Assembly (NCBI GenBank): GCA_913041175.1
Contig: CAJWGW010000004.1
Span: 1 to 32,469 of the forward strand
Source: an uncultured bacterium
GTDB taxonomy: Bacteria > Patescibacteriota > Minisyncoccia > Phycocordibacterales > UBA2163
Length of the DNA stretch: 32,469 nucleotides
Direction: 5' to 3'
Part shown: positions 19,993 through 21,159 of the stretch, in pieces
Layout: the number at the start of each line of letters is the position of its first letter
How positions within the stretch are numbered: the stretch's first letter is position 1
Made by a program: the position numbers and the translations under genes
The notes under the pieces: generated by a model
The model's database searches: none
Told to the model about the DNA's origin: nothing
What the model saw: the letters and a program-made list of their open reading frames with translations, nothing else

Positions 19993-20889
19993 TTATTTTA
20001 GAAATTTCTTAATTTCTTTTTCTATTTTTCTTGTTTCATTTGGTTTAAACCATCTGATTCTTTTATCGCGTTTGAACCACCGCATCTGCCTTTTAGCGAA
20101 GCGTCTGATTTCTATCCCAAGTTTTGAGAGCATCTCTTGTTTGCCTAATTTCTTTTGCAAGTACAAGGCGAGATAGCGATATTCAAGTCCGAGTGCTTCC
20201 AAACGTTTCCACGAAAGCCCTTTAGAGTGCAGACGCTCCACTTCGCTCACCATCCCCTTACGCATTCGCGCTATGAGCCGAGTGTGGATTTTCTTTTTTA
20301 GTTTTTCATCTGTAAGTTTTAACCCTATCTGAAGGGCATCGTATTTGGGGAGAGTTTTAAGTTTTGGTACTTTGCCGAGTTCACGCGCGATTTCAATCGC
20401 GCGTATTAAGCGCCGTGGATTGTCTTTCTCAATCTCATCTGCGCGATTAGGGTCTAATTTTTTTAACATAGCAAAAAGCTCATATGTCGATTTCTTTTCG
20501 AGCTTTTTGCGAAGTGTGTAGTTGGGCATAACTGCCGGCAGTATTAGATTATCTACTATTGCCTGAATATAAAAGCCAGTCCCCCCGACTATTATTGGAA
20601 CTTTTTGGGGCTTATGGATTTCTGCAATTTTCTTGTCTGCAAGCTTTTTGTACTGCGCGACAGAAAACTTCCGTTTCGGATTTGCGACATCAAGTAAGTG
20701 ATGAGACACTCCGCGCATCTCTTTTTTAGTAATTTTCCCGCTTCCTATGTCTAGCCCTTTGTACACTTGCCTAGAGTCAGCAGAGATAATCTCCCCACCG
20801 AATTGCTTTGCGAGTTTGACTGCCAGCTCACTCTTACCAGTTGCAGTTTGTCCTAATATGACTATAATTTTCGGCTTACTTTTGTTCAC
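19993..20889 (-). CDS. miaA: tRNA dimethylallyltransferase
   Basis: IIVILGQTATGKSELAVKLAKQFGGEIISADSRQVYKGLDIGSGK and NPRRLIRAIEIARELGK. GTG start at VNKSKPK proposed; the longer ORF to 20955 runs into a repeat element. Confidence 0.93.
   Translation of the reverse strand: MNKSKPKIIVILGQTATGKSELAVKLAKQFGGEIISADSRQVYKGLDIGSGKITKKEMRGVSHHLLDVANPKRKFSVAQYKKLADKKIAEIHKPQKVPIIVGGTGFYIQAIVDNLILPAVMPNYTLRKKLEKKSTYELFAMLKKLDPNRADEIEKDNPRRLIRAIEIARELGKVPKLKTLPKYDALQIGLKLTDEKLKKKIHTRLIARMRKGMVSEVERLHSKGLSWKRLEALGLEYRYLALYLQKKLGKQEMLSKLGIEIRRFAKRQMRWFKRDKRIRWFKPNETRKIEKEIKKFLK
20383..20404. repeat. Perfect inverted repeat in miaA coding sequence
   Basis: ACGCGCGATT-TC-AATCGCGCGT, 10-bp stem. Confidence 0.85.
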
Positions 20890-20898
20890 ATTTTTATG

Positions 20899-21026
20899 TT
20901 GTGCCGGAGGTGAGACTCGGCCACGAATCACTAAGTATTTTACTTCGTTCCTCATAAAATACTAAGTGTTCTCGACCCCGCCTCAGTGCTCAGACCAGTG
21001 GCGCACTTCCGGCTTTCGAGTCTCAC
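20899..21026. repeat. tRNA-Leu-derived nested palindromic (MITE-like) element
   Basis: 20899-20919 is identical to 21075-21095 (tRNA-Leu 3' end, 21 nt). Terminal inverted repeats GTGAGACTCG (20910-20919)/CGAGTCTCAC (21017-21026), inner GCCAC/GTGGC, innermost CACTAAGTATTTTA/TAAAATACTAAGTG with one mismatch. Confidence 0.8.
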
Positions 21027-21077
21027 AAACAACCAGCAATAAAAAATAAACAACAAAGAGTTGATTATTTTTCATTG

Positions 21078-21159
21078 TGCCGGAGGTGAGACTCGAACTC
21101 ACAAGCCTTGCAGCATACGATTTTGAGTCGTACGTGTATACCAATTCCACCACTCCGGC
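21078..21159 (-). tRNA. tRNA-Leu (anticodon CAA)
   Basis: Minus-strand GCCGGAG...CTCCGGC acceptor, anticodon arm TACGA-CTCAAAA-TCGTA, T arm GTGAG-TTCGAGT-CTCAC; 3' CCA not encoded. Confidence 0.94.

Follow-up and report, generated by a model that had tools for sequence, protein, structure and literature searches.

A putative RtT-like element family anchored to tRNA and tmRNA 3′ ends in Patescibacteria

The release of RtT (RttR) RNA from the tyrT transcript of Escherichia coli has been the subject of earlier work, and RtT has hitherto stood as an isolated curiosity of one enterobacterial transfer RNA (tRNA) operon. The E. coli unit (Rfam RF00391) is 178 bp long, lies directly downstream of a tRNA gene on the same strand, and consists of an antisense arm (GGGGAAGGAT), a folded core and then a copy of the tRNA-Tyr 3′ end. 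In the Rfam model the arm pairs with the copied tRNA end, and the annotated RttR 3′ end falls exactly on the CCA of this duplicate. Here we describe an element of similar layout from an uncultured bacterium of the candidate phyla radiation (CPR; Patescibacteriota, Minisyncoccia, Phycocordibacterales, UBA2163). It lies on the minus strand of contig CAJWGW010000004.1 (assembly GCA_913041175.1), of which the analyzed 32,469 nt (positions 1 to 32,469) are referred to as the window, and it forms a 176-bp unit behind an intact tRNA-Leu(CAA) gene. Read side by side with RtT, the element follows the same plan downstream of its tRNA, with antisense arm, folded core and a copy of the neighboring tRNA 3′ end, and its arm likewise pairs with the copied end in the predicted stem P1. 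Tandem copies occur in E. coli and in the CPR family alike. We consider it probable that the window element is one copy of a non-coding, non-autonomous, RtT-like family anchored to the 3′ ends of tRNA and transfer-messenger RNA (tmRNA) genes in Patescibacteria, in which the core spreads and the surrounding frame is derived from the target.

On the minus strand the order of parts is tRNA-Leu(CAA), spacer, antisense arm, core and second tRNA copy. The tRNA gene (21078-21159; Rfam tRNA 58.5 bits, ARAGORN 21077-21159) is both the host gene and the first sense copy of the 3′ half. The spacer (21027-21074) carries an A+T-rich terminator-like hairpin and a T run, to which a simple terminator scan of the window gave no score; GC-rich terminator-like hairpins occupy this position in most relatives. 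The 5′ antisense arm GTGAGACTCGAA (21015-21026), noticed in the initial annotation as an inverted T-arm copy and recovered by an inverted-repeat search, is the reverse complement of tRNA positions 54-65. The second sense copy CGAGTCTCACCTCCGGCACAA (20899-20919) comprises tRNA-Leu positions 56-73 plus CAA and is an exact 21-nt direct repeat of 21075-21095, 176 bp away, just as first annotated. Between arm and second copy lies a core of 96 nt (21014-20919). RNA folding places in it hairpin P2 (21013-20980; GCCGGAAGTGC...GCACTGAGGC), with a GGA/GA internal loop, and hairpin P3 (20977-20919; GGTCGAGAACACTTAG...CTTAGTGATTCGTGGCC), with a conserved GA/GT mismatch, a bulged A and a T.T mismatch. Together with P1, these give a predicted three-way junction, and the whole element folds at −50.1 kcal/mol (z = −3.7 vs shuffles). 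The three nested stems described initially are not upheld: the inner 14-bp stem is present, but P2 had been overlooked and the architecture is that of a junction. The acceptor-like CACTTCCGGC, previously read as a copy of the tRNA-Leu acceptor, is a coincidence, because the core begins with a conserved AGCCGGAAG, behind Val, Tyr, Trp and other tRNAs as well.

A DNA search of the 444-kb genome that holds the window returned related stretches; among the loci read, tRNA-Gly(GCC) and rplL, a ribosomal protein gene, are each followed by a full element. A covariance model built from three elements of this genome (R1) located an additional one at tRNA-Ser(GGA), and a tRNA census another at tRNA-Glu(TTC). 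Each of these copies is framed by the sequence of its own neighboring gene, never by that of tRNA-Leu. Other tRNAs flanked by the same core, which the initial annotation had proposed to look for, are also present in CPR relatives: of 60 genomes from the genus and order, R1 detects the element in 34, with up to 17 copies per genome and some of them in tandem. At least 116 stretches matched in a pattern scan of GTDB genomes. Among the matches listed, those named and confirmed by the model fall in Paceibacteria lineages including Yonath-, Nomura-, Kaiser-, Campbell-, Vogel-, Lloyd- and Taylorbacteria; the named matches are almost all from Paceibacteria, with outliers elsewhere in the phylum. The model confirmed none of the pattern matches in evidently non-CPR genomes, nor any of the short-pattern matches in four viral contigs. 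A second model (R2, built from 119 sequences) detects the element in 26 of 287 genomes across the phylum. Most of the 20 R2 loci read that have a tRNA in range share the plan, and an encoded CCA is frequent in both tRNA copies. In one genome (G032), 16 of the 31 tRNA genes examined, about half, carry a copy of their own 3′ half.

The conserved P2/P3 structure is real, and its covariation is overwhelming. Among 118 distinct sequences, 92.4% of cells are paired (74.0% when shuffled), double changes occur in 30 of 32 pairs, covariation in P3 extends to 18 of 20 pairs, compensatory cells number 603 against 171 in shuffles, and the covariation score is 0.380 against 0.128. The alignment was fitted to the structure of the model and the counts are biased towards it, yet the margin lies far above slid controls, in which partners displaced by 1-3 columns are paired in 30-46% of cells. 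The GGA/GA internal loop of P2 and the GA/GT mismatch and bulged A of P3 belong to the general anatomy of the family. These data leave practically no room for a chance local duplication with a hairpin and no wider meaning. A tandem duplication could yield the 21-nt repeat, but a family of no fewer than 191 copies that covary in structure and are framed by their own tRNA sequences refutes this explanation; the element is neither absent elsewhere nor a single local event. By contrast, the proposal of a MITE-like (miniature inverted-repeat transposable element) unit that uses tRNA T-arm sequence as termini holds in substance. The family is multi-copy, short, non-coding and conserved in structure, as are MITEs in general, and its termini are the 3′ half of the neighboring tRNA.

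Placement is equally regular. Among the 191 elements examined, 119 follow a tRNA or tmRNA gene of the same strand at a distance of no more than 110 nt, and none follows one on the opposite strand; the host genes comprise 18 amino-acid tRNA types and tmRNA. The tRNA-to-element distance peaks at ~68 and ~46 nt, and a minority at the shorter distance have an arm that spans the acceptor strand only. The second copy starts at a fixed point, one base before the end of the core, which corresponds to T-loop C56 in 73 of 75 well-matched cases, and throughout the family the arm stops at the complement of T54. Even the divergent T-loop of initiator tRNA-Met is copied faithfully (GCA instead of GAA). In many elements an extra hairpin splits the arm between its acceptor and T parts, and in several copies the complementarity of the arm extends into the trailer, often through trailer and terminator. 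Core length ranges from 65 to 125 nt, minimal cores being ~65 nt. Other core types are found in the same frame in G032 (loci L280:2991-3300, L275:9010-9400 and L278; for example TCGAACGGAACTTTTGC...GGAGGAAAATATTTTC), and several unrelated-looking cores therefore share one plan. The same genome contains, behind tRNA-Ile(TAT), an inflated pseudo-tRNA-Ile with hairpins in the D-loop, the anticodon loop and the variable region (L282:969-1380). Two elements (L029:1118-1180 and L044:241-303, minus strand) stand right after truncated tRNA 5′ halves, one of them tRNA-Ser-like, that belong to broken tRNA genes.

Core and frame can be followed separately. In its tRNA-specific part (positions 61-72), the arm matches its own tRNA at 6.5 of 12 positions (4.1 of 12 for shuffled tRNAs), and the second copy at 7.6 of 13 (4.6 of 13 for shuffled tRNAs). 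Cores of one genome that sit at different tRNAs have an identity of 0.706, compared with 0.648 for cores that share a tRNA but come from different genomes and with a background of 0.643; the P values are nominal because the sequence pairs are not independent. For example, G004 has near-identical cores behind Val, Tyr and Met tRNAs, each framed by the sequence of that tRNA. Core and frame therefore have separate histories: with flanks specific to the tRNA and cores that resemble each other by genome, the core spreads or is homogenized within genomes, and the flanks are target-derived. We note that tRNA-Leu(CAA) carries an element in three species of one genus (L047, L049 and the window), with a different core each time, and that L049 (genome G002) is syntenic with the window on both flanks.

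The arm itself follows the tRNA closely. At non-Watson-Crick positions of the parent tRNA, it is strictly complementary to the 3′ strand in 16 cases, identical to the 5′ strand in one and neither of these in six, and a leftover tRNA 5′ strand from a degenerate second tRNA is ruled out by this 16:1 ratio. At sites where the tRNA and the second copy differ, the arm matches the tRNA by 82:5, and compensatory selection on P1 is unsupported. When cases are selected symmetrically, the overall rate of change is similar in arm and copy, and a stronger constraint on the arm is confined to positions 61-63. Both ratios, together with the complementarity that reaches into the trailer, suggest an arm that was either folded back from the tRNA 3′ half or kept complementary to it.

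A non-mobile, cis-acting RNA would explain part of this. The read-through transcript of the tRNA would then contain a structure made of arm, core and copy that serves processing or regulation; in it the arm would base-pair either with the 3′ half of the tRNA or with its decoy copy, and the unit would be inherited vertically and homogenized by recombination. The strong RNA-like covariation, the same-strand placement behind tRNAs and an arm that remains complementary to the functional tRNA (82:5) all agree with such a structure, and Rfam classes RtT as Cis-reg. We nevertheless regard it as unlikely, since species within one genus carry the element at different tRNAs, one copy stands behind a protein gene (rplL), others follow truncated tRNA fragments, and a terminator-like hairpin separates tRNA and element in most copies.

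Two sites can be compared between genomes with and without an element. Downstream of rplL, G000 has an element, and in its congeners G004 and G005 a short spacer and a terminator are all that precedes the same next gene. The first rplL end forms the hairpin TACAGTTACT-CTTA-AGTAACTGTA with VTLK-stop still encoded, and the second (GTTACGCTTAAATAA) retains the AAA TAA ending common to G003, G004 and G005. Downstream of the rplL element, on contig C24 of G000 (L009:1868-1995), lies a second palindrome of ~130 bp (TTCTCAAAGG ... CCTTTGAGAA) that the model does not match; it is possibly another element type. At tRNA-Arg(TCG), contig C1 of G000 contains a near-perfect inverted repeat of the tRNA-Arg 3′ half (TCGAATCCT...AGGATTCGA; L010:1651-1694), the outer part of a longer stem that has neither core nor second copy. 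At its own tRNA-Arg, the related species G003 carries a complete element (L045), and the hairpin in G000 is probably a relic.

Candidate mobilizing enzymes were sought by domain counts. Each of the element-rich genomes G032, G045, G043 and G059 encodes a single PF00589 protein, an Xer-like tyrosine recombinase. Y1 transposases (PF01797; RAYT, REP-associated tyrosine transposases) were not found in the element-bearing, near-complete G015, G017, G035 and G042, nor were reverse transcriptases (PF00078) in the element-bearing G000, G017, G020, G040, G042, G043, G045 and G059. An IS110 transposase domain (PF02371) is present in two of 38 genomes. This pattern of presence and absence fits neither a tyrosine integrase nor RAYT, reverse transcriptase or IS110 as a required mover, and the core would therefore be copied or moved in trans by some other factor. 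No autonomous partner element emerged among the enzyme families searched, and the element termini are target-derived. A retro-derived origin, as suggested initially, is at odds with several element-rich, near-complete genomes that lack a reverse transcriptase.

The initial annotation had also considered an attachment-site (att) scar. As the product of a tyrosine recombinase, the unit would be a tiny integrated circle or the deletion scar of an integrative element, with the whole tRNA as attL and the second copy as attR. The duplicated tRNA 3′ half with its fixed T-loop start, the tandem accretion and the use of tmRNA are all features that such a product would display. It is very improbable all the same: a single Xer-like tyrosine recombinase is encoded in each genome that carries 10-17 elements, the sequence that would have to serve as att core changes from tRNA to tRNA while the element cores are alike, the conserved, covarying three-way-junction core and the antisense arm are foreign to att sites, and the viral contigs noted above gave no model match. 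A single-stranded-DNA recombination site of the integron attC or REP/RAYT (repetitive extragenic palindrome) type, moved in trans by Xer/IntI or a Y1 transposase, is quite improbable as well. The paired box, small unpaired spacer, extrahelical A and variable terminal stem of P3 do recall attC, as do the tandem runs. Integron-type GTTRRRY/RYYYAAC boxes, however, were not seen when the cores were read by eye, without an attC model; Y1 transposases are absent from the four near-complete genomes named, and the richest genomes have a single tyrosine recombinase.

For a spreading RtT-like family, the reading that we favor, the mobile part would be the folded core (P2 and P3), and the frame would come from the target. 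In effect the core interrupts a T-loop: tRNA positions 56-73 recur beyond it, an intact tRNA is retained upstream, and between this tRNA and the core lies an antisense version of the 3′ half that starts at T54 and runs outward. Cores may transpose or be copied through an RNA or single-stranded-DNA hairpin intermediate with the help of host or other proteins, and the arm may arise by fold-back copying of the target at insertion. Read-through transcripts may be cut back to the tRNA-like 3′ end, a possibility suggested by the annotated RttR 3′ end in E. coli. A bolder extension, to which we assign a low though appreciable probability, is a new mode of insertion: a small folded nucleic acid would enter the T-loop of a tRNA gene and, simultaneously, a fold-back copy of the target 3′ half would be written beside it, leaving the gene intact and the arm exactly complementary to its new host tRNA. 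E. coli RtT would then be a relic of the same process.

Several points weigh against a spreading family. The clustering of cores by genome could reflect gene conversion between resident elements, and no strain-level pair displays an insertion. No transposase, integrase or reverse transcriptase is linked to the family by the PF00589, PF01797, PF00078 and PF02371 counts. The core-less hairpin of tRNA and arm at tRNA-Arg points to a possible separate origin of the arm. Finally, the 82:5 preference of the arm for the tRNA is not what a simple RNA maintained through P1 predicts.

The element also affects the annotation of the adjacent miaA gene. The long miaA open reading frame (ORF) begins at an ATG at 20955, within the element, and the MiaA family profile TIGR00174 aligns only from residue 30. 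As stated in the initial annotation, the element supplies a spurious N-terminal extension (20890-20955, minus strand); judged from the sequence, the true miaA start is likely the GTG at 20889. In CPR genomes, element-derived codons should not be mistaken for the genuine N terminus of miaA or similarly placed genes, and tRNA 3′ copies should not be taken as integrase sites.

Compared with described mobile and recombining elements, the family shares traits with several. Like MITEs and RAYT-mobilized REP palindromes, it is short, palindromic, multi-copy and extragenic, and contains no ORF; unlike the latter, it is not tied to the presence of RAYT, and its termini are target-derived and differ in each copy. 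As in the tRNA att sites used by the tyrosine integrases of genomic islands, the 3′ part of the tRNA is duplicated from the T-loop and the tRNA remains intact, but the repeats enclose only ~155 bp including a folded core, an antisense arm is present, and there is no dedicated integrase. With integron attC sites it has in common an imperfect hairpin with a spacer, an extrahelical base and a variable terminal structure, as well as tandem runs. Unlike attC, it sits behind tRNAs, and no integron integrase was identified from the PF00589 counts alone, without a separate IntI search.

RtT offers the closest parallel in plan, though not in sequence. RF00391 has no match at gathering score in the window or in 13 CPR loci, and none at E values up to 10 in three element loci; Rfam searches of the CPR loci at gathering and relaxed thresholds return just tRNAs and weak chance matches, and R2 does not detect E. 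coli RtT. The P3 motif is absent from E. coli RtT, and a terminator-like hairpin usually precedes the CPR element, unlike RtT. A literature search on RtT or on tRNA-flanking elements of CPR bacteria turned up a single passing mention. On the other hand, the tandem-GA motif reported in RtT RNA (PMC7657543) recalls the GGA/GA loop of P2. E. coli genomes carry RtT-like DNA in 4,671 of 5,426 cases. The E. coli copies read here are confined to tyrT and tyrV; the CPR family, by contrast, occupies nearly every tRNA, tmRNA and one protein gene. The family provides a large comparative data set on how a core spreads while its frame fits each new tRNA, and on whether the arm acts on tRNA maturation. Units that follow the RtT plan but do not resemble RtT in sequence stand behind almost every tRNA type of a major CPR branch with very small genomes, which makes RtT-type units a general phenomenon.
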